Source: Rostratula benghalensis (taxonomy: Eukaryota; Chordata; Aves; Charadriiformes; Rostratulidae). From it: a stretch of DNA of 64,000 nt. The notes below the pieces were generated by a model, which saw nothing but the letters and a program-made list of their open reading frames with translations, made no database searches and was not told the origin of the DNA. Positions 1 to 41,353 of this stretch are shown piece by piece. The DNA is taken from contig VXAI01000039.1 of assembly GCA_013399305.1 (NCBI GenBank), positions 2,410,868 through 2,474,867 on the forward strand, read 5' to 3'. Each line of letters begins with the position of its first letter. The stretch's first letter is position 1. The translations under genes and the position numbers were made by a program.

Positions 1-1
1 T

Positions 2-871
2 GCACCCATTCCTAACTTAGTGGCCATGTCAATCAGAAGCAACAAGCTCAACAGTTTCTCCAGGGAAGAGTTTGAGTCCTTCAGGAAAATGGAGCTGCTG
101 GATGCCAGCGACAACAACTTCATCTGCTCCTGTGAATTCCTCTCCTTCATCCACCACCAGGCCAGGATAGCCCAGGTGCTGGTGGGGTGGCCAGACCACT
201 ACGTCTGTGACTCCCCCCTGGCAGTGAGAGGAGCGCAGGTTGGAGGCGTGCACCTCTCCCTGATGGAGTGCCACAGGTCCCTCGTGGTGTCGCTGATCTG
301 CGTCCTGGTGTTCCTGGCCATCCTCGTCCTCGTGGCTGTTGGCTACAAGTACCACGCGGTCTGGTACCTGAGGATGACCTGGGCATGGCTCCAAGCCAAG
401 CGGAAGCCCAAGCGAGCTCCACCAAAGGACATCTGCTACGACGCTTTTGTCTCCTACAGCGAGAACGACTCCGAGTGGGTGGAAAACATCATGGTGCGGG
501 AGCTGGAGCAGGCCTGCCCCCCCTTTCGGCTCTGCCTCCACAAGCGGGACTTTGTGCCCGGGAAGTGGATCGTGGACAACATCATCGACTCCATAGAGAA
601 GAGCCACAAAACGCTCTTTGTGCTGTCCGAGCACTTTGTGCAGAGCGAGTGGTGCAAGTATGAGCTGGACTTCTCGCACTTCCGCCTCTTTGACGAGAAC
701 AACGATGCAGCGATTCTTGTCCTCCTGGAGCCCATCCAGAGCAAAGCCATTCCCAAGAGGTTCTGCAAGCTGCGGAAGATCATGAACACAAAGACCTACC
801 TGGAGTGGCCTCTCGAAGAAGACCAGCAGGAGAGGTTTTGGTTTAATTTGAAAATAGCTCTAAAATCCTAG
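2..871 (+). CDS. TLR2: Toll-like receptor 2, C-terminal part (5' end outside window)
   Basis: TLR2 is a plasma-membrane receptor that recognises bacterial lipoproteins with a TLR1-type partner and signals through MyD88/TIRAP. The frame is open from the window edge, so the coding sequence is 5'-truncated; codon 20-22 (GTG) or the ATG at 26 is not the true start. Counting from base 20: a last leucine-rich repeat and an LRRCT cap with cysteines 36, 38, 63 and 84; a hydrophobic transmembrane helix at about 88-108; a basic juxtamembrane stretch (KRKPKR); and a complete TIR domain at about 139-283. TIR box 1 is YDAFVSYS. The BB loop reads RDFVPGK, with the signalling proline at 180. Box 3 has the FW pair near the C terminus. 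Stop TAG is at 869-871. No frameshift or stop is seen, so this part looks functional. Birds commonly carry two TLR2 copies; which one this is cannot be told. Confidence 0.95.
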
Positions 872-2249: not shown

Positions 2250-2388
2250 CTATTCTAGACCCATTGGGTAATTAATGCCTAGAACAATGCTTATAGCAAC
2301 TGATTGCCAAACCACCAGAGAGCAGATCCAGGCCAAAAGTTGTCCGTACAGTTCAAATGCATTCCTACCTAAACTATTGTTAAGGAAA
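2250..2388 (-). pseudogene. RNF175: RNF175 pseudogene terminal exon
   Basis: This block follows a good acceptor (TTTTCTCTCCAG) and stays open to a TAG at 2250-2252. It contains YGQLL, W.CSLVVWQ and GINYPMGLE immediately before the stop. The family ends YGQLLDWLRYLVAWQ ... GINYILGLE-stop. This is the least damaged piece: the natural stop is in the expected place and no internal stop is seen. The first 20-30 bases align less well. Confidence 0.87.
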
Positions 2389-3047
2389 CTGGAGAGAAAA
2401 ATGCAGCAATAGGAAAATTTCATGGTATTTTAGCCAGAATCAAAGAAAAATGGTTAGGGTAAAATTTTGAAATGCCTTCTTCACTTTCTTTTCTGTTGGG
2501 GTAAGGTTAAATATAAATATCCTCCTTACATATGGTTAAAGTAGGTTTCAAATAAGTAAGCCAAACTTTGCTTCCACTCAAGATGTAGCAGCAGATCTTC
2601 AACTATTATTTCATTTGCTAAAGGAAAAATGTTTACTAACTACTAAGAGAAGGGGGAAAACCAGCATTTGTTCTGAAAGTGGATTATATAAATTTTGTTA
2701 TTTCATTAAAGAGCAAAATCCACTGCATGGTCTTTCTGAAACTCTGATTTACATTCTTTAAAATGTTCCCCTCATTATAAAAATTATTTCCGGATGTCTT
2801 AAAATCAAGGAGGAAATATATACGCACTTTTCTATTCCTAGCTTTCTTGGGGTCTTAGATAAGATAAAGCCAATCAGAACTATCATCTTCCCTAAACATA
2901 ATTGTTCCTTAATAATAATTGGTTTTCCATTTATTTAAATGTGGCCATCTCATCCCTCCACTGCAGATCAAAACAAGTATTAGTAAGTAATCAGGCTATG
3001 GTTTAGAAAATCCAAATCAAAAGCACACGTGTTAAGGAGAGGATATA

Positions 3048-3122
3048 TGGGTTATTTAACATTCTCTTCAAACCAACTGCCTCAGCAAAGTATGGCCAAG
3101 TCTGGTTTTTGCCAGCATTGCA
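3048..3122 (-). pseudogene. RNF175: RNF175 pseudogene exon: second half of RING domain
   Basis: A 25-codon ungapped block reads CNAGKNQTWPYFAEAVGLKR followed by MLNNP. The family segment is CIVGKKQTCPYC followed by KEKVDLKRMFSNP. Both cysteines of the last CPxC pair are replaced (Trp and Phe). There is no internal stop, but the flanking splice sites are not recognisable. Confidence 0.85.
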
Positions 3123-3977
3123 TTAACCATGGAAGCAGAAGTCATTTTGTTATTTCATCAGGTATCATCAGGTGTACTGTTAAAGAATCTTTGAAATATA
3201 AACAAGGCCTGGTGCATACCTCTGCAAACCTGTCAAATTATCAACAGATACTTTTAATGACTGATTATGGATACTGCCTCATTTTATAGCTGAGGAGTTC
3301 AAAGTGACTTAAAATATTTTGAATATTTAGAATAATTTTAAAGTTCAATCCAATGTCCTGAACATCCAGACTGGTATTTATATTTTCCAGCTTACAAGAA
3401 GCCAGGAGACTTTTATGAACTGCAGAAGAGGGTGGTTACTATCGATGTTCCAGCATGTATTTTATACCTTTCTTTTTGGTTTCTGGAATGCAAAATGCAG
3501 AGTTGTTTGGTACCCTTGAGACACTGGGTCTTCTGTCAGGCTGAAGGCTACGTTTATGCCTTTGTTTGAGAAGAGTTCCACATCTGCCTTAAAACTACCC
3601 AGCAAGCACAGCCCCAGGCACAACTGGAGGAAATACTCTGCAGTACTCAGGAGCCTGAATTAGCAGACCCGACCAGTGGGTCGGCATGCCTGCTCTAATG
3701 GGCTGCCCAGCACACCCACACAGTCTGGGCACAAACCACCTGGAAGGCACATTAAGGCCTGAAACTACAGCGTTACGGCTACTCTTGCATCAGTTTGTCT
3801 ATCAAAAAGCTGCATGGACTCAATTTGTGTCGCAGAACTGAAATATATTTCATGTTCCCATTTTCACTTTTGTGCTATGTTGTTTCTGAATGTGGTTTCG
3901 TTTCCCCTTTTTTTTTTATGGTATTTATTTCCATTGTTATTATTTTTAATGCAGCATAAAAGAGGAGAAAACAACAA

Positions 3978-4136
3978 TTCCTTAATTGCATGGACATGAC
4001 ACACATGATTACAGGACAGCTGTTAGGTATTTTCAGTGATCCCTTCGTCACTGACATCCACAAATTTCTACCTGAAGGCTGCACAGATGTCATTGGACAA
4101 ATTTCTTGTCGGTATGCCACTGTTGTTGTTGTAAAA
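3978..4136 (-). pseudogene. RNF175: RNF175 pseudogene exon: first half of RING domain
   Basis: This reads FYNNNSGIPTRNLSNDICAAF, R, stop (TAG, 4068-4070), KFVDVSDEGITENT, stop (TAA, 4023-4025), QLSCNHVCHVHAIKE. The family has SGMPTKHLSDSVCAVC, FVDVSEEGIIENTY and LSCNHVFHEFC. The second cysteine of the first CxxC is Phe, and the cysteine after the HxF histidine is Ala, so the zinc site is broken even apart from the stops. No acceptor AG is visible at the expected upstream edge. Confidence 0.9.
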
Positions 4137-4787
4137 ATATCAAGATCAGGTTTACAGGAAAAAAAGAAACCAAAGAGCAACAAAATATTTGCTTAAAGAT
4201 GCACAAACATACTTTAAATGCCATCAAAGATAAGGACAGCCTGAAAGTAGCTACAGTTGTCATATTTTACTAGTATCAGGCTGTGCATAATGAAATAATA
4301 AAAATCTTATTGCTGATGCTAGCACTTTAGCAGTTGTCTGTTTGATTTTAAGTAACTGGGACACAAGGGAGTTGTGCTGAGATAGTCACCTTATTTGGAA
4401 AGGGAAGATTAGAGCTATAAAAAGGAAAGGGCAAGAAGAGCCTTTCACAGACTTTGGGGAAGTAAGAAGCTTGTCTTCTCTAGCAATTTGGAAAATTTTG
4501 TAGTCTCTTGTACGTAGGAACCAGCCTGTTGGAAACCGCAAATCAAGCCATGGCATATGTCACTGGCTACTACTTCATTGAGTCTGTCCTTCTAATGATA
4601 AGATTGACAAGGGAGTACAGCAGTCTGTCTGTGGCATAAGAACACCTCTCCTGAGGTTAGTTTACTGCAAGGGTATCTGGTAGACCTTATTCTCATGAAC
4701 TCAGGAGCACAAGAGATTTTCAAGAGCTCACTTCCAGTCCTGGCAAGTGGTATTCAGGATGCTGATTCCCAGCACTTAAACTTAAAA

Positions 4788-4901
4788 CATGGTGGAAACC
4801 ATGTAGTCAAAACAAGTCTCTGGAAAGTCTCTTCCCATCGCTCCATAGTAGAATCTTTAAAAAAAGTAGTATCACCAAAAATCCTTGGAGTCATCAGACT
4901 T
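4788..4901 (-). pseudogene. RNF175: RNF175 pseudogene exon: loop with GRDFPETCFDYM motif
   Basis: An ungapped 38-codon block (114 nt) aligns with the family segment that starts KPEDAMDFG. Here it reads KSDDSKDFW, a stop (TGA, 4872-4874), YYFF, a second stop (TAA, 4857-4859), then FYYGAMGRDFPETCFDYM and VSTM. The conserved segment is YYGVLERDFAEMCADYM. No clear GT donor follows; the expected GTAAGT position reads TTTTAAGT. Confidence 0.87.
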
Positions 4902-6558
4902 CTTTCATAAAACCACAAAAGAGTACTCAGGTGAGTCTGTTCTTGACCAAAATGCCAGAATAAAATATTAACAAGATTTTTTACTCCAGTTAGCTCCCAC
5001 TTCATTCAAACTGCAGGTTTAGTTTCATCTTCTTTTGCAGCACAGACACCCTCGTACTTGAAGTACCAGTATGCTTGACAGCAAGCAATGTTGAAAGTAG
5101 GCTATGAACTGCTTTTGGAGCTACTCAGTTCTGTTATAGGAAGGCCAAGCTGACACATGTTATTATAGAAAGAGACTTTGCTTAGGGTCTTATTCTGCAG
5201 AACAACTAGATGTATTTGTTTTGCAGAAGCACCAAGATCAGCCAGATCTCAATAAGGTGTAAGATACTAGTCAAAGAAATATCAACTTTCTGTAGCTGAA
5301 AGATCCCACTGTCCTCCTGAGTATAAAATTTCTCAGAATAAAACCTCGGCTAAATTGCAGCAAGCTATATTCAACCCCCTAGCCCGCTAACCCTGAACCC
5401 AATAGAGCCTGCAAAAATGTTAACATTTCTTATCATGTCTCTGAGATTATGTGTTACAGGTCTTGGGAGACTGAAACCTGGCTACCAAATACTCACAAAA
5501 CTGGACCTTACCAACATTAAAAACCTCTGTATCATTTCTGCTGCAACCGGGCACAAAGTAACAACCTTTAAAATAGAGCTAACAAATTTTGTAGTTGTAT
5601 CTTTAAAATACACCGGTGGGGGAGTTTAGCTGGTTAAATAAAATACCTCAAAAGAATAAAGCTTAACAGAATTGGTAACACAAGACTGTTAAGTTTCTGC
5701 CAAGAATTTTCCATCAGAGCTATGTACTTTTGGATTAATCAACTATACAATGTATGGGCAATAAATCTGACACTTAAAGGAACAGCTGATTTACGTATGT
5801 GTAGTATCTCCAATACCTCCAAGAAGTGTTGGACTTAGAGCAGATGCATTATATAGTTGATCTACATGCTCTTGAGGAATCGTTGGAATTTCTGGTCAGA
5901 CAGCACCTCTGAGTTCAATACAGTAGCTCTGGCTAGGCTGCAAGTCGGACAGAAATCCTGGACAAACATAAAGAAAATTAAAATTCTACCCAGGCAAAAA
6001 TTCCAGCTGGAGACTTATCTGGATATACAGTATTGTCTTTGGCTACAGTCAAAAAAAAAATAAAGAAGAGAACACCCTAGAACACCCTAGCAACACTATA
6101 GCCTGGCAGAGCAAGAAATCATAATTATCAGAAAGAATTCTAATGTGGTTTTGATATGAATGTGCTTATCTACTTTTATCCTATACATCAAGACTTTTTA
6201 TGTCTTGTCTCCTTCAGGTGATGAAGGACTGAGTATTAACTCAGAAGCTAAATCAGGGGATTAAATGAGTAAACACAGTGGCTGTATGAATTTTAAGGTT
6301 TTTCCTCCTCTCTTCACACCTCAAACACAAGTTGTAAAATGACTGAATATCAAACTTCAAGCCAACTGCAAGCCAACTATGCAATAAGAAAAATCAAGAA
6401 GTAAGAGAACCTACAGCCGCACAACATAAAAGGATTGCATATGTTGAGGTGGGTGGTAAAGAGATCAGCCTGGAACAATTTCATTGCAAACAAAGTAACA
6501 TCTACAAAATAGGAAATAATAACTTTTGCCAATCGCCATTTTACCTGAAGATACTTAC
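4902..6558. other. Former RNF175 intron
   Basis: AT-rich noncoding sequence between two RNF175 exon remnants. It contains a 10-bp tandem duplication (AACACCCTAG twice, 6071-6090). No repeat family was recognised. Confidence 0.5.
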
Positions 6559-6671
6559 CTAAAGAATAAATTAAATCCAATCCAATCACGGTAAACATGA
6601 TGGCTACATAACACACAATTCCAATTGCACTACTTAATCTATAGATCAGGAGAAATCATTTGTAGACCAAC
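6559..6671 (-). pseudogene. RNF175: RNF175 pseudogene exon: LVYK/FLLIY and membrane helix
   Basis: This block follows CCATAG and ends at an intact GTAAGT donor. It reads LVYK, then TGA at 6656-6658 in place of a conserved Trp, then FLLIYRLSSAIGIVCY and VAIMFTVIGLDLIYSL. The family has FLLIYK..YATGIVGY at this point. The frame downstream of the stop is still a clean hydrophobic helix, so the exon has decayed only a little. Confidence 0.88.
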
Positions 6672-6850
6672 CTATGGATAAGAGAAAGGAAAGGCTGCTC
6701 AAAACATTGTGTATTTTGCAGTGGCACAAAATATCGCATATGGATCTTCTACTGAAGTATTCATAAAAATTCAATAAGTTTTACACTTCTGTATTTCTCC
6801 CTTGCTTAAAGGTGAACAAAAATGGATGATACAGGGCAAAAAACCCTCAA

Positions 6851-6871
6851 AACCTTTTTTTTTTTTTTTTC
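6851..6871 (+). repeat. Poly-T tract
   Basis: Homopolymer run of T ending in CTTCAG. Simple low-complexity sequence. Confidence 0.8.
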
Positions 6872-7540
6872 TTCAGTCTTTACAAGAAATGGTAATTGTG
6901 AACAGATTGTTAACATAATTAAAACTATCAGTTAAGAATTGTGAAGGAGGGGAACATACGCCAGAACAGGACAAGAACAGGTGAAAACCAACTGAGGTAA
7001 GTTAGATATAGTCAAGTCAGTATACCACCAATGAAATTTATCTAAAATACTCAGAAGTTAGCAGAAACAATCTCTGAACCATTAGTAATTGACTTTACAT
7101 GCTCAGGGTAAAGAGGCGGAATTTCAAAAGACTGGAGGAGTAATAATACAAGACTTCTCTTTAGGAAGGCTGAGGGAGCTCTGAGGAAGAACTTCAGACT
7201 GTTGGGTATACTTACCAAATCAGGTTCTTCAGGCTCAATAATGGCTGGGATGACTGCTGATTGTAAGAGTCCGAAGCATGAAAAACCAAGATGGAACTGA
7301 CGGAAACTGACGGTTTAATTATTTTTCAATTGCATGTCATTCCTGATAAACACGAATTTAGATGAGCTTAGTCATTCTGCATTTGGAAGATTCTTTCAAA
7401 TTCAACTGCTAATGGCTGTTTTTGTAATCTGTGAAGATCTGTTCCAGGGAAATTTGCTCTTCTCCTTCTACAGGTTTCCTTTAAGAAGTAATACCTCAAA
7501 AATCCCCAAAACAAGGCAAAACCAACAAAAAAGGATATAC

Positions 7541-7696
7541 TGTGGTGTTCTTCCCCAGAGAAGCTTTAAGGTTGCTCTGAAGGTGAAGTAACTGGTAATA
7601 AATTTATAGCATTCCCAGCATGGACAGAGATCTTCAAAAGTAAAGTTTGATGGTGAATTAAAGAGGAACAACCCACATATACAGCAGCGTGACATA
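7541..7696 (-). pseudogene. RNF175: RNF175 pseudogene exon: transmembrane segment with MWVVPL and TFRAT motifs
   Basis: The exon follows an acceptor-like CAGCAG and ends before GTATAT. It reads YVTLLYMWVVPL, then a stop (TAA, 7658-7660) where the family has Tyr, then FTIKLYF and a second stop (TGA, 7634-7636) where a Trp is expected. An extra base near 7618 shifts the frame, after which FITSYFTFRAT and GRTP align with the family. The length of 156 nt equals the 155 nt expected plus the insertion, and the phase fits the next exon. Confidence 0.88.
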
Positions 7697-13942: not shown

Positions 13943-16900
13943 GATTGTTCTATACGTGCTCATGTGCTGTGTTTGCTCAGGGTTAGGGGCATGTGTTTAT
14001 CAAGGCAGAGAGCTAGTGACATGAAGCTAAAATCCTCAATGAGCTGTGCTTCCCGTGACTTGCTTAGACACTTCACCTGTATATATGTTGCCATGATGAG
14101 CATTTCATCGCTGTTCCTAAGTCTGTAAAGTATAGCTGAACAGCCTGCTGAACCTCTGCATTGCCATTTTATGCCACTGTGAAACTCCACTAACACTAAA
14201 GTTGTCATAGATCAGGTTGGTTTTATATCCCCTACTAAAACAGTTTCTGTGAATTGTAGCAAGGTTTCATTCCTTAGCGTTTAACAGACCTGTCAAATCA
14301 GGGAGTCTGAGGAGCAATTGTCAAGGGATAAAGTATTGATCATGACAGTTATTGATGTCACTGGTATTAAGAAGTTCAGTTACAAAACAACCGCATTTCA
14401 AACTACAGATGCCTTAGGGCACTCATCAGCTGAAGAGGGAAAAGCTAAGAAACTGGTGGTGTGCTTAAAACTCTACCTGAGATATTGTGTAATGAAAATT
14501 ATTTAACATTTACTTAACACTCACATTGCTTTTTAAGGACTGGTGCTTTCTGAGATGCCCAACTTTTTTTAAACTAGTGAATAGGGAGGTCAGGGGTGGA
14601 AATTGTGTGACACCAGTTTTCTCAGGACAGCAGAGAAGTCTGTGGTAAGGGAAAGGAAGTGAGCTGAAGCACTAGAAGCCCCAGTTCTAGCACCTTAACC
14701 GCAAGACCAGCTTTCTCTCTAATTAGGCATGTGCGTGAGTAACTTAGTGAGCCTTGGATTCTCCCAGTAAACCCCCTGTAGCTTTACTTCAGCTGGATAA
14801 AGGTAGTTATTTTGTTCTCCTACCTAGTCCATTATTAGACAGCTTTTTGAAAACTAAAAGCCTTTTCCTTAATGTTTAACCTACTAAAGACTAACCACAG
14901 CATCAGTATACATACACAGATAACAAAATACAAGTTATTTTCTCTTCCAATGTAAAAGCTGTTCCCCACCTGACCAAAAGCCATGACTTGCTGCTTTCCA
15001 CAGAGACTCAGCTGTCTTGCTAGATGTCAGCTCTCAAGAGTATGTCATGAGTCCCAATTGTTATCTGAGAGAAGTGATGTCTAACCACTTCCACTCCAAA
15101 ACTGCTGTCTTTCTGACAAGATACCCACCTTGTACAATCTGCAGTGTCTTTGCTTTCACTGAACAAGCATAATCTGAGCAAAAACCAAGGTTGCGACAAG
15201 AACAAGAACCTTCTCCATATGCATTGGTCGAAGCTGTAGTGCTTTGCATGTATCTTCTGATGTTGCAACCCGAAAACAAAATATGTGTGCTAGTTATGAA
15301 AACATAACAAAAGTCTAGATTGATTTGTTATACCTAGAGGTGAGAGTCAGCCTATGTATGAGAGACACTTTAGGAGGAAATTATAGTGTTGTTACTCAAG
15401 AAGATATAAAATAGCAAATCAGATAATAACATTTGGTCTTTGTAACTAGAACTATTATCCTGGAAAAGGAAATTTAGAGTAAAGTAATGGGCAGAGAGTT
15501 GGTTTTGTTTGTTTGTTTGTTTGTTTGTTTGTTTTCTAGTAACTCAGTCCTGAACATATAGCCATGGATACATAATGCCTACGATTTTTAAGGAGATATT
15601 TCATAATCACAGATCTGAGCCCCACATACTCTTTTAGCTCGAGGTAAATGCAAACCCAGAAGAGGGCTTAAATCCCTTTTTCAGCTTCCTTCCCTATAAA
15701 GTGGTAATTGTAGCTGGTATTTATAGTCCTTCTAAAGTTAACTAGAGCACTTAAGAAAGGAGGGGATTGTGTTGGAGCTATAAGTCAGCCTCCTTCATAA
15801 CTTAAGCTGAGTGAGCTTCTGTGTTAGAGTGGAGCCACCTGACTCTGTAGTAAGAACCTTGATTTTTCACCTGACCTTGACTCAACCTGGATGTTAGTTT
15901 CCCTCTGATCTGGAGCTTTCTGGGCCGACATTTCAGGACTCAACAGTACCTCCTGGCTTCTTCTCAGTGTACCCCAGCTGCATTCTGAAATGAAGCTAAA
16001 GAGACAGACATACACTGTCTCCCTTCCCCTTCCATGCTCTGGCCCCTGTGGGGAGAAACGCTGTGTATATGGCCTGGAAGGGGGCTGCAGTATGTTCTGG
16101 TTGATGCCTGTCCTGGACAATTTGCAGATCAAGACCTTGTGTAACACTGACTGATGGGCAGCAGTTACTCTGTTCAAACATGGCCAGTGTTAAATCAGTT
16201 GGAATCCAGATTTGAGCAAGGAACTATGCAAAAGCCTGAAGTTATTCTTTGCTGCTATAACCTGCTAGCCCATGTCAGCCAAATTTGAATCCAACTTTTG
16301 ACGTTGCAGATACAGGTTTAAAACCTGAGGTTCTTTCCCATCCCTTCTTGAGATGAAAAAGTGCAACAGTAGCCATGCTTTTTGCCATTTAAAAGCAAAC
16401 AAACAAAACCCAAAAGGCTACGTGATGGATGCTGTGCTCAGATGCTGGAGCACCAAAGCAGGTAGCGATACCAGTGTCAAATATCTTTCTTCTTGGGTTT
16501 ATGCAAGTACCACATAGAACCACATCTTCGCTGACAGCGTGCTTCTGTTAAAAGTACCTCGAAGCAGCTCGTCGGTGGGATGGACTCAGTGTCCTTCAGG
16601 CTGTAATCAAGGGTGCCCCCTTATGGGCAGCAGATCGGTGCTGGGCATGCTGGCAGATCAAGCTGGAGACAGTATGATTAATATGCATCTTCAGAAAAGG
16701 GAAGGCAGCAACAGGTAGATAACAAGCTGTTTCTATCCATCCCTCTCAAGCAGGCATTAAAATGATGGTTGAAGGACCATTTCTTTATATTAGACTTGCA
16801 AGGACAGGAAATATTATTTATTGTACCTAAAGGAAAACATTGTACTACAACAGTGATCTCAGTAATGATCACTATAAAGCTGTTCCCTATTTTGTTTTGC

Positions 16901-20458: not shown

Positions 20459-20789
20459 TATGTCTGGGCTTTTCCTATACTACTGCACACATAATGAAAA
20501 GTAATTATGAGTAATGCATAAAGTTGTATAGATGACTACTGTCTCACCCTGTGCCAGCTGGTGTAAAATCCTGCAAAAGCTGTAGGAGGGTGGGGAGAGC
20601 TTTAAAGTGTCTCGATGGCTCCATTTTCCAAGCGGGAAGGAAAATGGCGTTAGGGGGGGAAGGAGGGCCCAACAGCCTTGCTCCCCAGGAGCAGAAGGGT
20701 GGAAGGGTGCTGGGCCTGGAGAGGCAGGTGACGCCAAACCAGCAGGCTGGGAAACAGGAGTGGCCCTGCGTTTTGGGGCGGGAATGCTG

Positions 20790-21270
20790 GTTTAGAGGTG
20801 CGGGTTTCTCTCTGCCCCTTCCTAGGAAAGCCTGGGCCGCCCCCGAGGTCCCCGCTCCCTGAGGGGTAACGGGGCTGAAAATGCAGCTCCTGGCTGGACG
20901 GCCAGCGCCGCCTCTCCGTGAATGCACACACGCAGGGCTGCAGCCCGGCACCCTTCCAGCCACCCCCTTCCCTCTTTCTCTTTTTCCTCCCCCCCGGCCC
21001 CGCTGCGGCAAGGAAGGAGGTGCCGCTGCCGGAGTCCTCGGCCCCTCAGCGGCGGCGCTGGCGGGCGGCCATTTGGCGGAGGCGCGGCGGGGGCACACGC
21101 AGAGCCCCAAGATGCCGGCGCTGGGGCCGGAGGGTGCCGGGGCCCGCTGGGCTTTCACGTTCCCGCTCCCCCAGCCCGAGTCACGGAAGCGTTTTACAAA
21201 GCGTCTTCGAGGTTGTGTTGTGTTTTGTTTTGTTTTGTTTTGTTTTTCCCCCCCTCCCTCTGAGGTTTAG
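20790..21270. promoter_or_regulatory. CpG island without a recognisable gene
   Basis: A sharply GC- and CpG-rich block in an otherwise AT-rich region, densest at about 20880-21200 (for example CGGCGGCGCTGGCGGGCGG near 21050). Such islands normally mark a transcription start. No family-like exon was recognised on either strand. On the minus strand an ATG-GCC-GCC start lies at 21072 but stops after eight codons. Its position upstream of the RNF175 remnant makes it a candidate orphaned RNF175 promoter, or the promoter of a noncoding RNA. The long open frames here are a by-product of GC richness. Confidence 0.7.
21215..21247 (+). repeat. (TTTTG)n microsatellite
   Basis: Pentanucleotide TTTTG units at the edge of the CpG island. 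Confidence 0.85.
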
Positions 21271-21664
21271 TGGCATCGCTGTCGCCAGGCAGGGGCTGAA
21301 CGTTAGTGCTGCTCCGGGCCAGTCTCGGGGGTGGAGAGGGGAGCACCTTGCTTCACCTGCCCCAGCGCTCAGCTGGGTGTCTGCAGCCCAGACCAGTGGC
21401 CTCTCCCAACTCCACTACCCGTTCTAAACACAAGAGAGGACATACCTGTCTTTATTAAATACTCTCCCTGTTGTCTTTGCTTGGTGTGCCTGGTGAATGG
21501 TTGTGGGAAAGCAATTAAGATCCCTCAAACAGGCTGCTTGAAGCCTCCCAAGGCATGAGCTGATCGAACTTTATCATTGTTGGTGCCAGATAATGACTTA
21601 ATTTTGTTATCTAGTGCATGGTGTGGAGGTGGTATGTGGTCTCCCGGCCCTTTCTGAGTCTATT

Positions 21665-22152
21665 ATTGAGAACGTGGACCTGTTGGAGTCAGTCCAGTGG
21701 AAGGCCACAAAGGTGGTCAGAGGTCTGGGGCACGTCTCACCTATGAAGGCAGGCTAAAAGAGTTGGAGTCGTTCAGCCTGGGGAAGAGAAGGCTCTGGAG
21801 AGACCTTACTGCACCCTTCCAGTACCTAAAGGGAGCCTACAAGAGAGATGGGGAGGGACTGTTTGTCAGGGAGTATAGTGATAGGATGAGGGGTAATAAT
21901 TTCAAACTAGAAGAGGAGAGATTTAGATTAGTTCTTAGGAAGGAGTTTTTCACTATGAGGGTGGTGAGACACTGGAACAGATTTCTCAGAGAAGATGTGG
22001 GTGCCTGCCCCATCCTTGGAAGTGTTCAAGGCCAGGCTGAATGGAGCTTTGAGCAACCTGGACTAGTGGGATGTGTCCCTGCCCCTGGCAGGAGCTGAGA
22101 ATTCCATTATCTTTAAGGTCCCTTCCAACCCAAACCATTATATGATTCTGAA
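21665..22152 (+). mobile_element. CR1 LINE, 3' end, 5'-truncated
   Basis: The plus-strand frame 21697-22098 carries the CR1 reverse-transcriptase tail (YEGRLKELESFSLGKRRLWR, then KRDGEGLFVREYSDRMRG). It is followed by the CR1 3' UTR with AACCTGGACTAGTGGGATGTGTCCCTG and ends AACCATTATATGATTCTGA. The polymerase catalytic region is absent, so it is a dead copy. Confidence 0.93.
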
Positions 22153-24509: not shown

Positions 24510-25258
24510 ATTGTAGAATGATATGGGGTTGGAAGGGACCTCTGGAGATCATCTAGTTCAACTGCCTGCCAAAGCAGGTCCTCCTAGAGCAGGTTGCAGA
24601 GGAATGTCCAGCCAGGCTTTCAAAGTCTCCAGAGATGGAGACTCCACCACCTCTCTGGGCAGCCTCTGCCAGGGCTCTGCCAACCTCACAGTAAAGAAGT
24701 TCCTCCTCATGTTTAGATGAAAGTTCTTATGTACAAGTTTGTGACCATTACCTCGTCTTGTCACAGGGCACCACTGAAAAATGACTGGCCCCACTCTTGA
24801 TACCCATCCTTTAAGTATATATAGGTGTTGATCAGATCCCCCCTCAGTCTTCTCTTCTCCAAACTAAGACGACTCAAGTCTCTCAGCCTTTCCTCATAAG
24901 AGAGGTGTACTAGGACCCTAATAATCTTTGTGGTCCTCTGCTGTATCCTCTCCAGCAGTTTCCTGTCCTTCTTGAACTGAGGATCCCAGAACTGGACACA
25001 ATACTCCAGATGGGGCCTCACCAGGGCAGAGTAGAGGGGCATGGACACCTCCCTCAACCTCCTGGTCACACTCTTCTTGATGCACCCCAGGGTGCCACTG
25101 GCCTTCTTGGCCACAAGGGCACATTGTTGGCTCATGGTCATCCTGTTGCTCAGCAGGACTCCCAGGTCTTTTTCCTCAGAACTGCTCTCCAGCAGGTCAG
25201 CCCCAAACTTGTACTGGTGCAGGGAGTTCTTCCTCCCGAAGTGCAGCTCCCTACACCC
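24510..25258 (-). mobile_element. CR1 LINE, antisense, about 750 bp
   Basis: On the minus strand the frame 25141-24761 carries CR1 ORF2 sequence: [40 protein letters not shown] and LSLEKRRLRGDLI, the region after the polymerase palm. It runs into the 3' UTR and ends near 24510 with AGAATGATATGGGGTTGGAA in plus orientation. The active-site region is missing. It is the longest well-preserved CR1 frame in the window. Confidence 0.95.
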
Positions 25259-28200
25259 TTTTTTTTTTCAGGAAAGCTCAGAAAAGAGTAGCAGGACAGT
25301 AGAGAGCTGGAGGGGAATCTGGAGTTGTGCAATGGGGTGTTGCACTCAGTAAAGAAGATAACACAACTGGGAGATAACAGGTATATTCCAGTCAGAGCTG
25401 AAGCTGCTCTCCCGTGTAGGAAACCTGAATGGCACAGAGTTCACTGAACCCAAGCCCTTTACTACAAGCTCATCTTGTGGCTCAACATACTGAGTTTTTC
25501 ATCTTGGCATCTAAAGTCTCGGTCTTGCTATCACACACTGAAATTCATAGTGTGGCTCCCGCTGAAGGTGACAGGATGACTCACAGGAGTGAAGCGATGT
25601 GGCTCCAAAAGCCTTTGTGGCCTGGGCAAGGAGCACTCCAGCCTGTGGAGTACTGGGGAGGCAGCTGCTGACCGGCCATGGCATGTATGCAAAGCAGCTT
25701 GTGAGTCTTTGGACCCCTGGCATATGCTTTACGGTCTGGGTCACACACTGAAATCCGTGCCACGAAGCAGTCGTGTGCAAGCTTTAGTCTCGCCAAAGTC
25801 AAAGGGAATTAAACACATCTTCAAAGTTCAGCGTGTGCCCCAGCACGCCTGTGCCCAGGAGGCACATGGTCATTGTGCTGTCCTGCTGCAGGGAGGTGGT
25901 TTCTGCCTCACAACAGCTCTGAGGCAGCAGCAGTAGGGTAGATACTCGCCGCTGCATTTTAGCTGAGTTCGGAAGGGAGCACATTCCATCTGAATGTGGA
26001 TTTGGTTTTGCACCTCTGAGCAGCAACTGCCCCAAAGCTCCCAAATTTTCAAAGAGTTACATGGGGATTTATCCAGCCAAATCCCATTATAATCAATGGG
26101 AGCTGGGTGAATAATTATACTGCCGTTCTTTGTAAATAATGAGGAAGGTTGCTAGTTATTGCTGATTATGATGCTGACTTTTGTAGATATACATCCACGC
26201 GTCTATTAGGAATTGCACTTAGACCACCAGGTTATTTCACATATTGTTATAGTTTCCGTATTTACTGTGTGTATTGCTTCAAAGAGCCCAAGGTTGATGA
26301 CTTCTGGTCCACTGTGTTAGCAGTCCGTCTCCTCTCCATCTCCTGTTGTTTCCTTTCACAATCTGAGTAACAAAAAATGGTGGTGTAAATAGAGCTCCAA
26401 CAAAGAGGTCTGTTGAGCCTGTAATGCTCCCTTGAAAGGAGGCTGTCTCAGGGATGAATGGAATGGGCTCAGCCTAGCAGTAGCAGGGAAATAGATGACT
26501 TGGCATTGGAGAGTAGCAGCCAGCAGGGTGCATATGCCTAGTGTAGTGGCAAATAATGGTTAAGCTAGTCAGTTGAAGGGCTAAATGAGAGGACATTGTC
26601 TAACCCTGTAACCGTAACTAAATTGTAACCTGAAAAGAGTTTATAAACATCTGGCTGCTAGCCCATCTCTAAAGCTTAATAGCTAAATCTGAGGTGAAGA
26701 AATTTTTAAGGCTGCAGTTGAAATTATTACTTGGAAGTATTACCGTTTTAAGGAGATTAATTGAATTTCAGGATTGTAGAGTGTATTAAATTTTATTTTT
26801 AGCATCTCTACTGAGTTTTCCAATTAAATTAGTTTCCACAAAATCAACATTTATGATTGATGTTGCTTCCATTTGGAAATAGACACTCATTTGGAAGCAC
26901 ATTTTAGTTTCATGACATCTTGCTGCTGATTTTATAGCTCTGCTCAGTATTCCATACAAAATTCTAATCCAGTGGTATACCTTAGCTTCACTATTTATAT
27001 ATTTTTTCAGATGCTTATCTGTTTAATGGAGTGTGTGACACCTCTGTATCTTTTATTCCTCACAAATTTAGGAGTGCAGGAGCACACTTCCCTGTATGGT
27101 CCTATTTTATTTTAATATTGCTATTTGGTGACAATGAAAAGCTGGTTAGACTAATAAGCATGTGACCTCCTCTGCAGACTAGCTTTTCAATCTCTTTATA
27201 GCTTCCATTATTAATAGGACAGCATCTATGTGCTCCACATTTGTGTTGCAAATACTTACAATAGTTGGAATCATTTTCTAATTACTTAAACAATGCGCTG
27301 TAGCAGCACCAATTGAAATTCCTGTAGGCTACAAGCTTGCTAATTGTTTCCTTTAGTAAACCTAATTTATAGGGCTGTGCAAATAGTTGCTGGGTTTAAA
27401 GTATTTTGGCAGCTGAACTGAAAAAATAAATGTTATGGACTGAATGGAAACTTCATTTCTTTTAGAATTGTCAGCACAGCAACAAGAAATTATTTGAGGT
27501 TACAGAAACATTTTTAAACACCTGGCAAACTGTTTCATTTGGTTTTCAGGTATATTTAATAAAAGCAAAGGGCTGGATCATAAACATGAGAGGGAAGTAG
27601 TCCCAGCTCTCCTGTTTTATCCACTGGTTAAGTGAGGAGGGCAATTTACCTGGGATGTTAACAGCTTAAATTCAAGACTCCAAGCTGCTTCAGGTTTTTA
27701 GTAAGGTTCACCTAACACTCAGATGAAGGTCTTAACACTGGAAATGAGGTTTTCTGGGATGGAGCTCTGTTTCTGGATTGTGCCTAGATTGAAAAATAAC
27801 CCTAATGCATCAAGCAAGCCAAATCTGAACTCCTGGGTCCAATTTCTTGTGCTGGATCTTCTCTGTTCACGAGTCTGATGTGGGGGCAATGGCACACATC
27901 TTACAGGGGCAAGAGGGAGGCTGAGGATTGGAGATGGGCTCTGACCCCTCTACTTCATGTTCTCCCACTGTTGTGCAAAATGCATAACCTAGTCATCAGG
28001 CCATAAGCTTATTCTTTCTCTGATTTATTCTGTAATTTTATATGATTTGGAAAAGTTTCAGTAGGTAAAAGTGAGAGTGAAACACCCAGCATACTCCCCG
28101 TTCAAGTGTGTAGCTACCAAAATCTCTGGTTACTGGTTGAGCTCTTGATCTGAACTGGGACATGGAGCACAGAGGGGAGGAGAGGACAGATTTAAACCTG

Positions 28201-34592: not shown

Positions 34593-37500
34593 TTAAACTA
34601 ATCCATTGTAGTCAACTGCTTTTATAGTTTTTTGTGAAAGCAAATACAATGGGAGCCACATAATTGGCTGCCTAACAATGTTGTTTTAATTAGAAGACAA
34701 CAAAAAGTGTCTGAAAAATGCAACAGTGGGTTGCCTTTTTCATCAACTGCAGAAAAAAAAAAAAAAATCTTCTAGAACTGAACCATACAGTACCAGGTGG
34801 TACAGTTACTTTTTATTATATGCGACACACTGATCAGAAGTAACAGGCTCAGTTAATTTTTGGTACATGTTTGGTTCACTATTTGCCTGGCACAGTCGAA
34901 GATTTTCTGTTATTGTTGAGCAAATAAGAATAAGTATACATTTTTCACATTGTTATATGTTTACTTCTTTGCCAGCATCTGAGAGATGAAGTTTCCTCAG
35001 GCTGTTGTTTTAGAATCCTAATTTTCTGTTGAATAATTTTTAATGTCTGGTTTGTATGCCTTGGGAAACAGATTACTATCACAAACACTGATGCTCTCTC
35101 TCCTTGGTGAGGTGCATATGGACAACCTTTTAATACGGTGCTGTTAGGAAAACGTGATGGAATTAAATTGTGAAAATGTGATCCTCATTACTCTTCACAT
35201 TTGCCTAAATCCTGTTTATCTGAAAGGTAATCCTGCCTCTGCCAATTCACCCTGAGGGTAGATAGTCCCAGTGGTTCAGCCCAGGGCCACAAGCAGAAGG
35301 CTTTATGGGTAGGGGTATGCTGTTCAGCAGGATACTTTTAATCCAGGAGGTTGATTATTCTTGTAAAACTGAATATTTGCCAGTCTACTTTGTTCTTTTT
35401 TTTCCTGAATCTATCCTGACTGGAACAGGATTTTGCTGGAGTAGCAGTGTTTGTTTTGTGGTGGAGGAAGGGGAATGTTTGGGGGTTTTTTCAAGACGGA
35501 GTGATGTTGGTCATAGGTAACGTGTCTTCATACATCTAAGTGATTTAGCAAAAATCTATTCTGTAGATCTTGGCCTTAACATGACCCCAGAGTGAGTAAC
35601 TTGTGACCTGTCTGTCCTCATCAGCATCAGTGCTGTTGCCTACTAGAACAGCCCAATTAAGATAATTTTATGGTTGCTGTAGGAGGAGTTAGTATCTGTA
35701 AGGCAGGCTGAGTGGAGCAGTCCTGGCTGTTCGGTTTTGATCCCCAGAGACTGCAATGCAACCACTGCCTCTTTCAAGTGCGTTCCTCCACCAGGCAGCA
35801 CAGCACAAGCCCATTTTCTGTAGTTCATCTTCAGCCAACTCCTCTTTATCTGAGAGCTCGTTCACACTAAAACCAAGGCTGTTCAGGGACAGTGATTGCA
35901 TTATATGCTGAGCAAGATGGGTAGAATGATGTGACATCTGGATGCTGATAGCTCTATAAAGTGATGGACATAGTGCTGGTATTAAAATAATTACACCATA
36001 GCATGAAAAATCTCTAATCTGCTTCCTGTGAAGCCAGCTCCATTCTGAAAAGTTTTAATGCCATTAAACAGCCAGTTTGGAATGGGGCTTTTTGTTTGGT
36101 TGTTGTTTACTATTGTTGTTGTTGTTGTATTTTGAGGGTATTTGTGAGGACTGGTTGTTTTTTTTTTCTTACTCAAAGTCCAACTGTTCTTTTGAGTGCA
36201 TTAAGACTTCGTGAGAGGGCAGACTATTATTTTTCTAGAACAAATTTGACATGTTNNNNNNNNNNNNNNNNNNNNNNNNNNNNNNNNNNNNNNNNNNNNN
36301 NNNNNNNNNNNNNNNNNNNNNNNNNNNNNNNNNNNNNNNNNNNNNNNNNNNNNNNNNNNNNNNNNNNNNNNNNNNNNNNNTCTAGTGTCGGACTTGCATG
36401 TTGTCTGTGTATGGTTAGAATAAAATGCTGTCCTTAGGAATATTGGACTGCTTATCCTCTCAGTGAAGCTAAGAGGAATTTTTTTATGTGTGACAGCACT
36501 GTGAGGCAAGATTCTTTTTCAGGATGAAATACAATAAAATTCTAGCATGTAATGCTCTTCATCAGAAAACATTGGTAAGAACAATGCTAAATACCATTCC
36601 TCCAGTTACACTATTAAGTAGGTTTTATTTTCTTTCTTGGTAAGAATAGCAAGTGTACATACACACAAAACATGCCTTGCTCACCATTCCGAATTGCTAG
36701 TTGCAAATGAGACTTTTCTGTCTACTTTTGCACTCCTTAGATGTCTTTTTCAACTGTAAGAAATGGATAAATGGATTTGATACTTAAACAAATGGTCTCA
36801 CTGCAATTCCACATCAGCAAAAAGCAGAGTCTTCTAAGATGAGATGAAAATACAGGTGGTCGAACAAAGGAGCCACAGAAAAGTCTTCATCTTGAAAAGC
36901 TCAACAGACACATGTTAAAATGAGTTGACTGAACCTCAGTCCCGTGTCTAGAGCGTTCATCTTTGGGGAAGTGAGGTCCACTATGTTTGTTCTGATTGCA
37001 GTACTAGATGCTTCCTCGTACTTTTCTGCTGGTCATGTGGGGTGGAAGGCCAAGGCTTTGCCATGACAAAGCCCAGTTGGACAGCTTTCTCCCACTTCTC
37101 CCGAAAGAGATTGAAGTGAATATAGACCAAGACAATGGGTAAACTATGATGTAAAGTTTATATACAAGAATATAACATTTATCTGGAGTATTTACAAGGT
37201 TAATTAAAGCAATATTTTACAACTCTTTCAGGTTAACCACTAGGTATATTACAGCTATAGATGGTTTAATTTGTAAAATAATAAAAAAACTCCCATGTTG
37301 CATTCAGATCAATCAGCTCCAAAATTTACTCATTTTTTCTGCAAGAGAAAGGCTTAGACTTGTGGAAAATAAAATGTGAGAATGGTTAAATGCTCTTACT
37401 GGTGCCTATGTATCACATGCAAGAGTTGTAACATGACCTTTATAATCTTAATATAGATGGCAAGGCATTTCACCTTGGTGAAAGAGTCGTGCCCACTGTG

Positions 37501-37907: not shown

Positions 37908-39968
37908 CTAACACTGGAGTTTGCGGATACTGCGGGAGAACCGCTTGAAGGCCCGCTGCCCTTTCTGCCACCGCTTCAGCGAGGTGATCACCAGTTCCCC
38001 AGCTTGCTTTTGCCCCATCACCAAGTAGGGGACATTGATGTCGTTCATCTCATCGCAGGTACATTGAAGGCCACCTTTGAGCCAGAGCACGATCTTCCTC
38101 AGATCCCTTTCCGTCAGCCCATTCAGCTTGTAGATGGTCTTGCTCTTTGTTTCGGGGGTGATCTTGGTATCCCCATTGATGTAGGCAATCTCCTTCACTT
38201 TTATCTTCAAGGCTAATAGAGTGAGGGGAGGGGGAAGTGGGATGAGGGAGAGAGGGAGAGAGATTGAGAGGTTTTTTCCCATTAGTGCACATAAAGAGGA
38301 CCTGGGGAGGGAGGTGCTCTATTGCTAATTAAACTGTCAGGGCTGACAGAAGAGGCAGCAGGTGGCTCCATTTCTAAAGCCACAAAGGGCATGCAAGTCA
38401 TTCCAGTTTGAATCAACCTTAGGGTTGAGGTTTTAGGGGTTTCTTTTCTCTTCTTGCCCCTCCCCCTCTTTTTCCTTCCTTTCTAAATTAATATTTTCTT
38501 GGGCTTTTCTTCTGTTTGCAAACAGAGAGAGGGCAGATTTGCTACATTAAGTAGCACTCTGTTGTTTGGGGTTTTTTTGCTGGGAGAAGACAGCCTTCCT
38601 GAAACTAGAGTTTGAAGGGGAGGTGGGGAGGCGAGTACCTAGAGCTAATCTGAAACTTGATCTCTGCTGTGGCTGAAAACTTCTAAACTTAATTTATTAG
38701 GCTGGAGAGGATTTTGGGCAAACCTGTAAGGAAATGATATTTCACATGCATTGTTTTTTTGAAAGAATAGATCCCGCGGAGGGTGTATTTGTCCAACAGC
38801 TGCATTCGATTTGGTAAAATAACTAGGAGGGGGATACAGGGCTCTGTAAGAATCTGTGGGGCATGTTTAGCTTTAGGAGGATTTATCTGAGTGCAATTTG
38901 CCAGGCCAAAGCTAGTGGTTGTTTTGACAATTATGTCCCACGGTCATGGTTTCAGGTTTTGGGTGGTGGATTATGTTTTTTTGTAAGAAAGACTTTTCAG
39001 TTGTTGTAGATATTTATATTACAAATATGTTTCCAGGTATAAACGTTGACCTGCTATAAAAGGAATCCCCTCCTTATTCCCTTTTCCTCTCGAGACGCTA
39101 ATGTGCTGGTCAGTTGTCTGTGTTGAAGGGGGTTTCTTGTCCTCTTCTAACCCCAGATCTTCCCATTAAGTTTGTATCCCCAATTGTCTGTGCGTCACCT
39201 TCTCTGTCAAATGATATATAGAACTCCATTCTTAATCTGTAGAGAATCTTTCTTACGATACATGAGATTGGTCATACAGACCTTTCTCATACGTCTAAAT
39301 GAAGCTTTGCTCTACTTCTCCCCGGGTAATAGTGGGGTTTTTTTCCCATTTTACTTTCTATTTTACTTTCCAGCAACATCCACTTAAAGAGCACTACTTT
39401 GGAACAGCAAACAGAAAGGGGACTATAAAAAGGGCCACTTCTTATTCTGAGATGGAATTTTATATTTCATGACCTAATGATCAGATGGGTCCATCTGCAG
39501 ATAAGACAAAGCCCTGCCTTTATTCAGGCATATATCTCTCTGACTGCACTGGGACTTTTCTACCTGATCCTCAACTCTAGAGTTTCAACGGATGGGGCTC
39601 TGCTTCCACTTACCAAAGTCATTTTTGCAGAGGTTTTCCACAATGTCGTTGTCGTCCTCGTTTTTGTTCTTGCAGGCATCGCAGACCTTGGGTGCTGGAA
39701 ATGCAAGGGACAATCCCCGTCAGGCTCGGGGAGAAGGGAACAGCAGGTGGCGTTGGGAACCCTTCGGGACTCGCCCTGCGCCTTCATCCCTCCTCTGTGT
39801 CCCCCCCCCCCCGGCCTCAGCCCAGGCGCTGCCCGAGCACTTTGGTGCGCCTTACCTTGTTGCAGACCCCCTGGAGGGGGGGGCACGGTGTGTTTTTAAG
39901 GTCACACCTAAACCAAAAGGTGGGTGGTTTTTGTGTGGAGGGTTTTTTTTGGGGTTTTATGGGTGTTG

Positions 39969-39999
<31 letters not shown>

Positions 40000-40856
40000 C
40001 GGGGGAAAGAGTAAAGAGACGGAGGGGACACGACAGAAAACACCCGAACCCTGCGCTTCAGCGGTGATCTTTGCAAAGGGAGGATGTCTGTCCCCGCGCC
40101 GCTCGAGTCCGGGGTCCCGGACTTCGCCTTTGGGGATAAGGACGGGCAAAGGCCGGGGGCTGCGGGCCAGTGCCAGTTCCCCGACGGTGCCTGCGGTTTC
40201 CCCGGTCCCTTCGGGAAAGCCTCCTGACCTGCGGCCCTTTCCCCGGTCCCTCCCGTGCTGTAAAGGACGGGAGACAACCTCCGGTCCCCTGCAGAAACCC
40301 GGGGAGGGACTCTGGGGGGGCTCATCGGGGGGCAGGTGCTGCCGTCCCGGGGAACCCTCTTACCTTCCCTGGTGACCGGGAGGATGTGATCGCTGCTGGC
40401 TAGCGGGATGCAGAGGTCGTTGTCCTTGGGGAAGCGGCTGCAGTCCAGCATGTCGGGCCAGGGAAAGCCGAAGGCGGACATCACCGGGGCGCAGCTCTCC
40501 TTCACCTCCTCGCAGAGCGAGTGGCAGGGCTGGATGATCTCGTCCAGGTCGTCGATGCAGACGGGGGCGAAGAGGGAGCAGAGGAACTTCCTGGTGTCGG
40601 GGTGGCACTGCTTCTGCACTAGCGGGATCCAGGTGGAGGCCTGTTCCAGCACCTCCTGCACCGTCTCATGCCCCAGCAGGTTGGGCAGCCGCATGCTCTG
40701 GTACTCGATGCCCCGGCACAGCAGCATCGGGGCGGGGATGGGCTTGCAGTTGGAGCGCTTGTAGGAGAAGTCGGGCTCCCCGAAGGGGAAGAGCCCGGCG
40801 GCCGAGCCCATGCACTGGGACGCCAGCAGGAGCAGGGTGCAGAAGCGGCGCTGCAT
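37908..40856 (-). CDS. SFRP2: Secreted frizzled-related protein 2, three coding exons
   Basis: SFRP2 is a secreted Wnt-pathway modulator. Coding exons on the minus strand are 40856-40364 (493 nt), 39694-39614 (81 nt) and 38212-37908 (305 nt), totalling 879 nt or 292 residues, close to the human 295. Donors are GTAAGA and GTAAGT; acceptors are TTTCCAG and TATTAG; phases agree. The start MQRRFC gives a signal peptide of about 21 residues. A frizzled cysteine-rich domain follows with ten cysteines (37, 47, 84, 93, 100, 111, 115, 122, 139, 149). A short linker leads to a netrin-like domain with cysteines 169, 172, 187, 242, 244 and 292, ending RSIRKLQC. The frame stays open upstream of this ATG, but only this start places the signal peptide at the N terminus and has an A at -3. 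No defect is seen. Confidence 0.97.
38213..39613 (-). other. SFRP2: SFRP2 intron 2
   Basis: 1401 bp between coding exons 2 and 3. It holds a TATAAA-like word near 39423 and T/C-rich stretches near the acceptor. No nested gene or known repeat was recognised. Confidence 0.8.
39695..40363 (-). other. SFRP2: SFRP2 intron 1
   Basis: 669 bp, GC-rich toward exon 1 (the CpG island continues into it). It contains two long homopolymers on the plus strand: C12 at 39801-39812 and T27 at 39969-39995. A read-through of exon 1 stays open across much of this intron, giving a 426-codon frame that is not the gene product. Confidence 0.85.
39969..39995 (+). repeat. T27 homopolymer in SFRP2 intron 1
   Basis: Uninterrupted T run (A run in the SFRP2 sense). 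Confidence 0.95.
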
Positions 40857-41043
40857 TTTGGGGCGCAGAGGAGGAAAAGGGGGGCGAGGGGGCTGGCGAA
40901 AGATTTGGGGGGGCCGGGGTGGCGGGGCGCGGAGCGGGCGGCTGCCCTCAGCCGCAGGCAGCGTCCCCCAGCCCGGGCTCCTGCCTGCCAGACGGAGACG
41001 GAGGGTCTGAGCGAGATGTGGGGGCAACCGGGAGTTTTCTGGA

Positions 41044-41060
41044 TTTTTTTGTATGCAAAT
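41044..41060 (-). promoter_or_regulatory. SFRP2: Octamer plus TATA-like element of SFRP2 promoter
   Basis: Sense-strand ATTTGCATACAAAAAAA combines a perfect octamer (ATTTGCAT, 41060-41053; ATGCAAAT on the plus strand) with a TACAAAAAA box. It lies about 40 bases upstream of an initiator-like TCAGACC at 41010-41004. This would give a start site near 41008 and a 5' UTR of about 150 nt. Placement is typical, but the start site is inferred. Confidence 0.5.
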
Positions 41061-41111
41061 GGCAGGGGGAGCGGGGGCTGGGAGGAGCCTGGTGACAGCC
41101 ATCCAGAAAGG

Positions 41112-41116
41112 ATTGG
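41112..41116 (-). promoter_or_regulatory. SFRP2: CCAAT box of SFRP2 promoter
   Basis: GACCAATCC in the SFRP2 sense, about 105 bases upstream of the proposed start site near 41008, which is the usual CCAAT position. Confidence 0.45.
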
Positions 41117-41353
41117 TCACTACTTTCTCGGTCTGCTTTGGCTCAGGGGGATTGTCTTTTGGCAGGAAATCCTTGCAAGAAACGTTACGGCGCGAGCACG
41201 GGGAAGGGGGGAAAGATCCCTGCGAACAAAGAGCCACGAAAGCCCGAGTTGCTCCTCGGCCCGGCCGGCGGAGAGGGGCCGCTCTCGGGCCGCGGGTAGC
41301 TGGAGGTGAGCTCAGCCGCTAACACAGCTACTGCCAAGCGGCGGGACCCCCAC

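Follow-up and report, generated by a model that had tools for sequence, protein, structure and literature searches.

In a 64,000-nucleotide stretch of the Rostratula benghalensis genome (contig VXAI01000039.1, positions 2,410,868 to 2,474,867; hereafter the window) we identify the remnant of RNF175, the gene for a membrane-bound RING ubiquitin ligase. From comparisons of its sequence with those of other vertebrates we propose, with considerable confidence, that the ancestral gene has become, by decay in place, a unitary pseudogene, that constraint upon it would have been relaxed since the stem of Neoaves or Neognathae, and that the related ligase RNF121 would have covered whatever role the two had in common.

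Seven blocks on the minus strand, running from 15274 to 2250 of the window, match RNF175 from exon 2 through the native stop codon (exons are numbered after the RNF121/RNF175 layout). A preliminary description of this DNA had recognized six collinear blocks in 2250..7696 and had proposed a frameshift-aware alignment of the region. Those six blocks are recovered by TBLASTN and correspond to exons 3-8, but the complete extent of the remnant is greater, with a further block for exon 2 at 15274-15126. Frame-aware alignment against kiwi and penguin RNF175 models, combined with direct reading, gave seven disrupted blocks:

15126..15274, minus strand: RNF175 exon 2 remnant; frameshift at ~15226-15225, stop TGA at 15158-15156, GT donor kept
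7540..7693, minus strand: RNF175 exon 3 remnant; stops TAA at 7660-7658 and TGA at 7636-7634, insertion of one base at ~7617-7607, GT donor kept
6558..6673, minus strand: RNF175 exon 4 remnant; stop TGA at 6658-6656 in place of a conserved tryptophan, acceptor AG and GT donor kept
4788..4901, minus strand: RNF175 exon 5 remnant; stops TGA at 4874-4872 and TAA at 4859-4857
3996..4136, minus strand: RNF175 exon 6 remnant; stops TAG at 4070-4068 and TAA at 4025-4023, one codon missing, CAVC read as CAAF
3045..3146, minus strand: RNF175 exon 7 remnant; stop TAA at 3125-3123, CPYC read as WPYF
2250..2364, minus strand: RNF175 exon 8 remnant; TAG in the place of the native stop at 2252-2250, short deletion near the start

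All but one of the seven blocks carry in-frame stops, nine in total (1, 2, 1, 2, 2 and 1 in exons 2 to 7, respectively), accompanied by frameshifts in exons 2, 3 and 8 and a probable one near the 3' end of exon 4; in exon 5 an alternative reading puts two compensating frameshifts in place of the two stops. Among exons 3-8 the stops affect five of the six blocks rather than the four counted earlier, the sixth (exon 8) having the short deletion instead, while the single-base insertion already noted is that of exon 3. The blocks are spread across 13 kb and are still separated by their introns, as previously stated and unlike what is seen in a processed copy. Several junctions retain GT or AG; at exon 7 the expected acceptor has no AG and the expected donor no GT, and both splice sites look lost. 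Even when the stops are read through, the RING has three of its eight zinc ligands replaced, one in exon 6 (CAVC to CAAF) and two in exon 7 (CPYC to WPYF), leaving the remnant short of the eight ligands by which an active RING E3 ligase is recognized. The stops, frameshifts, splice-site losses and ligand losses uphold the status of pseudogene suggested earlier, and the locus is predicted to make no working protein today. Exon 1 was not identified in the window, there being no bird exon 1 reference to compare, and the exon 3 frame found no match in the PDB.

The remnant lies between two recognizable genes, on the strand opposite to the first of them:

1..871, plus strand: 3' part of TLR2 (upstream flank), coding for the TIR domain, with a frame open to its own stop; PDB match to the TLR2 TIR domain with e-value 3.8e-83 and Pfam match to TIR
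37908..41318, minus strand: pieces of SFRP2 (downstream flank); NTR-domain frame at 37908-38318 and Fz-domain frame within 39957-41318

For the downstream flank Pfam itself gives the Fz (e-value 1.4e-30) and NTR (e-value 4.6e-9) domains; we take the gene to be SFRP2 among the SFRPs, and its middle exon was not located in the window. Human RNF175 occupies the same place between TLR2 and SFRP2, and the position first claimed for the remnant is supported, with the downstream gene taken as SFRP2. TBLASTN searches with human RNF121 and then with the kiwi RNF175 model P0095 both returned collinear minus-strand blocks in exon order. The kiwi query gave nine high-scoring segment pairs in window 1-36000 (e-values 1e-13 to 3e-6); 100 dinucleotide shuffles of the same region gave no match below 1e-4 (best 0.023), by which chance similarity was ruled out. 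Summed TBLASTN bits were 345-410 for seven RNF175 models (kiwi 377; the lowest-scoring, that of Sphenodon, is incomplete) and 341-342 for two RNF121 proteins. At 11 diagnostic columns, which distinguish 11 proteins of RNF175 from 9 of RNF121, the remnant has the RNF175 state in seven, the RNF121 state in none and another state in four, in agreement with the initial assignment. Together, the introns, the position between TLR2 and SFRP2 and the diagnostic columns mark this as the orthologous locus, and by these sequence criteria the remnant is RNF175 and not RNF121. A processed or RNF121-derived copy, considered as a separate candidate, was ruled out by introns, synteny and diagnostic columns. 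That the pseudogene is unitary would follow from the synteny and the kept introns.

To place the remnant among its relatives we used three protein searches (896, 838 and 740 matches, of which the best 120 of each were taken). Among the matches listed, 15 bird RNF175 models were recognized and all were used, being compared as proteins only. One is that of the kiwi Apteryx mantelli (P0095), a predicted, open model of 316 residues and the sole palaeognath row among the matches listed. The other 14, which we take to be neoavian, come from Eudyptes, Spheniscus, Aptenodytes, Nipponia, Theristicus, Ciconia, Sula, Morus, Scopus, Balearica, Aramus, Uria, Aquila and Sarcoramphus. The preliminary description expected that gene prediction would likely leave the locus blank; in these other birds it is annotated, as 'RING finger protein 175'. 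Seven of the 14 models are partial, four are labeled LOW QUALITY and three are neither, and some read into introns. No RNF175 of fowl, ducks, songbirds, parrots or pigeons was recognized among the matches listed, which is not proof of absence, a few rows being nameless.

Conservation was then examined at 193 columns that are invariant over 12 non-avian RNF175s (turtles being kept apart), both without and with a local mask on badly aligned stretches. The kiwi model is changed at 7/193 of these columns (3.6%; masked, 7/190 or 3.7%), the 14 neoavian models at 11.5-22.5% (masked, 11.0-21.8%), and the window remnant at 53/183 (masked, 50/172 or 29%). The masked ratio of change at invariant to change at variable columns, which approaches ~1 in an unconstrained gene, comes to 0.30 for kiwi and 0.89 for the window, and spans 0.53-1.09 among the 14 models. 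As a control, 18 bird models of RNF121 under the same mask show changes at 0-2.4% of their 186 invariant columns; in a single species, Sarcoramphus papa, RNF121 is changed at 0/184 columns versus 17/155 in RNF175. Zinc ligands are lost in four of the 14 models (Morus, Scopus, Balearica and Aramus). Thus, in the models compared, constraint on RNF175 held in fish, mammals and tuatara, nearly held in kiwi, and was lost in the 14 neoavian birds. The preliminary description was right in seeing a loss, but its restriction of this loss to one bird lineage was too narrow.

Turtles offer a side observation: three models (P0121, P0126 and P0139, two of them LOW QUALITY) are changed at 5.8-8.6% of the invariant columns, and that of Pangshura has lost one RING zinc ligand. 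A separate relaxation of RNF175 in turtles is possible on this evidence.

Phylogenetic analysis united the window with the 14 neoavian models in one group (100/100), with kiwi outside and a stem of 0.088 changes per column. The placement of the window within this group is weak, near Balearica/Aramus, the crane and limpkin (87/76), and Uria, the guillemot (88/95); the approximately unbiased test does not reject a clade that joins the 14 models to the exclusion of the window (p 0.314). There are 17 sites at which most of the 14 models depart from a state that 90% or more of the non-avian references share. The window shows the neoavian state at eight of these (I40V, F87S, F94L, R116Q, K252N, R293C, A297V and M199I); M199I also occurs in kiwi, and the seven other shared changes do not. 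At six sites it has another or no state, two of these (kiwi 278 and 279) looking misaligned beside an intron read-through and being left unused. The shared derived changes and the grouping with the 14 models argue that the loss of constraint predates R. benghalensis. Relaxation probably began before the sampled neoavian lines parted, with much of the decay coming later and separately in each.

These comparisons are consistent with a scenario in which constraint would have been relaxed along the stem branch of Neoaves or Neognathae, once the kiwi line had separated, disabling mutations then gathering neutrally and partly separately in each line. Conserved RNF121 may have covered whatever ubiquitin-ligase role was shared, and neutral decay might have been tolerated because RNF121 remains conserved. 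RNF121 and RNF175 are described as close homologs, and silencing of RNF175 is reported to have had no overt effect on NF-kB activation by the TNF receptor, unlike silencing of RNF121 (PMC4232610).

Upstream of exon 2 on the strand of the remnant there is a further feature that may bear on its expression:

20701..21500, no strand assigned: CpG island, in which no coding gene was recognized; observed-to-expected CpG ratio 0.60

This ratio over 20700-21500 compares with 0.19 and 0.23 in two other stretches. The position is that expected for a promoter with exon 1, making the island a candidate relic or live RNF175 promoter. A minus-strand ATG at 21072 inside it, considered for exon 1, opens only eight codons. 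Since the island stands in the expected place of the promoter, continued transcription is possible. One could accordingly entertain, as a tentative addition compatible with decay in place, that the protein is dead while the old island still drives a noncoding RNA. The island is away from TLR2 and SFRP2, the two recognized genes, and a study that names RNF175 in a figure legend reports expression for about 65% of its 48 unitary pseudogenes of rodents (PMC3580494). That same legend, however, leaves RNF175 out of the expression analysis because it lacks constitutively expressed exons. The island may belong to another transcript, the window has no Rfam match at gathering score, and the closest bird precedent, STK33, is reported as not transcribed (PMC4509753).

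More doubtful still is the most inclusive version of events, whereby RNF175 would have been constrained from sharks to kiwi, released once on the neognath/neoavian stem, be dead or dying across Neoaves, be undergoing a separate loss in turtles as it earlier did in rodents, and retain a CpG-island promoter still making a noncoding transcript in birds.

Certain observations weigh against the preferred reading, decay in place after an early relaxation. All eight zinc ligands are kept in ten of the 14 neoavian models. The window is ancestral at three of the 17 sites (K81, K154 and F241), where changes have spread among the neoavian models without it (K81R in 14/14, F241S in 12/14 and K154E in 11/14); part of the decay was therefore separate. 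The 12 references score zero at the invariant columns by construction (0-3.3% when each is left out in turn), and odd isoforms inflated the unmasked RNF121 control (0.5-19.4% across 11 models), an excess that the mask removed. Partial or LOW QUALITY models may carry annotation errors, the kiwi model itself has eight extra residues at the last junction, and, the relatives being seen as proteins and not as DNA, no shared disabling mutation among birds is claimed. The retained ligands and the three ancestral sites, together with a terminal branch for the window (0.30) that is the longest in the tree, would speak for a recent loss in this lineage alone, other neoavian birds keeping a working but faster-evolving RNF175. 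We consider this improbable: every one of the 14 models is altered at invariant sites nearly as often as at variable ones, four have lost zinc ligands, seven are partial and four LOW QUALITY with some reading into introns, and the window shares the neoavian majority state at 8/17 sites, one of them also in kiwi. Very unlikely, too, is an intact RNF175 elsewhere in the same genome with the pseudogenic copy here, given that the introns, the exon order and the place shared with human RNF175 would make any extra copy the one elsewhere, and that no well-conserved neoavian RNF175 was recognized among the matches listed (best 120 of 896, 838 and 740). Errors of sequencing or assembly in a working gene can practically be dismissed: the assembly does contain a run of 125 Ns at 36256-36380, between the remnant and SFRP2, but lesions occur in all seven blocks while the TLR2 and SFRP2 frames are open, which argues against poor base quality, and replacements affect invariant columns almost as often as variable ones.

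Decay in place of the ancestral gene, the reading we prefer, also has a bearing on how the public records of bird RNF175 are to be read. The penguin models P0162 and P0166 start with a sequence (P0162: MQNGTIGCHYFEMT) that matches the window intron upstream of exon 3 (MPNGTIGWHYFEMT; 7758-7717, minus strand), as expected of annotated pseudogenes. The tryptophan replaced by TGA at 6658-6656 of the window is the very residue absent in the LOW QUALITY models of Theristicus (ibis; P0163) and Macrochelys (turtle; P0121), where a stop has perhaps been stripped from the records; the residue X is absent in all 170 proteins collected. A chicken entry named 'Ring finger protein 175' (P0118; UniRef A0A8V0XCQ8) shares 92% identity with RNF121 over 78% of the query and seems to be misnamed, being RNF121 by sequence. 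Public bird proteins named RNF175 are probably for the most part (14 of the 15 recognized) readings of a decaying locus, and their use calls for caution. Elsewhere in the window, putative pieces of CR1-like repeats are found at ~975-1460, ~21660-22150 and 24761-25267, the last without a Pfam match.

With the loss described here, one more ubiquitin ligase joins the genes that have apparently become dispensable in many living birds, and the onset of that loss is placed before the divergence of the neoavian lines sampled. The idea of redundancy also becomes testable, since RNF121 would be expected to fill the common role in birds without RNF175. RNF121 is the paralog but not the source of the remnant (0/11 diagnostic columns), and it is conserved in the 18 bird models; the kiwi RNF175 matches the window block by block (19/34 to 34/48 identities per block), but is open and little changed at the invariant columns. 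Among the papers listed in a search of the open-licence PMC literature, none is, judged by title and start of abstract, on RNF175 loss in birds.

Two published systems come closest. The survey of rodent unitary pseudogenes, which for its 48 loci required rodent disabling mutations and conserved neighbors, includes RNF175, the same gene as in the bird remnant but in a separate event; in the available portion of that paper it appears in one figure legend, without detail of its lesions, and the word 'chicken' does not occur (PMC3580494). STK33 is reported to show a pattern like that of bird RNF175, with a readable copy in palaeognaths and, in all 28 neognaths examined, remnant exons bearing indels and stops (PMC4509753). 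It differs in being another gene, and in the scope of its evidence: that study covered 28 genomes of neognaths as well as some RNA sets and found a shared exon deletion, whereas here there is one palaeognath model and no fowl or duck RNF175 among the matches listed. The interest of the present case is moderate, since unitary pseudogenes including rodent RNF175 and bird STK33 are already in print; the decay of RNF175 in birds therefore represents a known kind of event in a new case.

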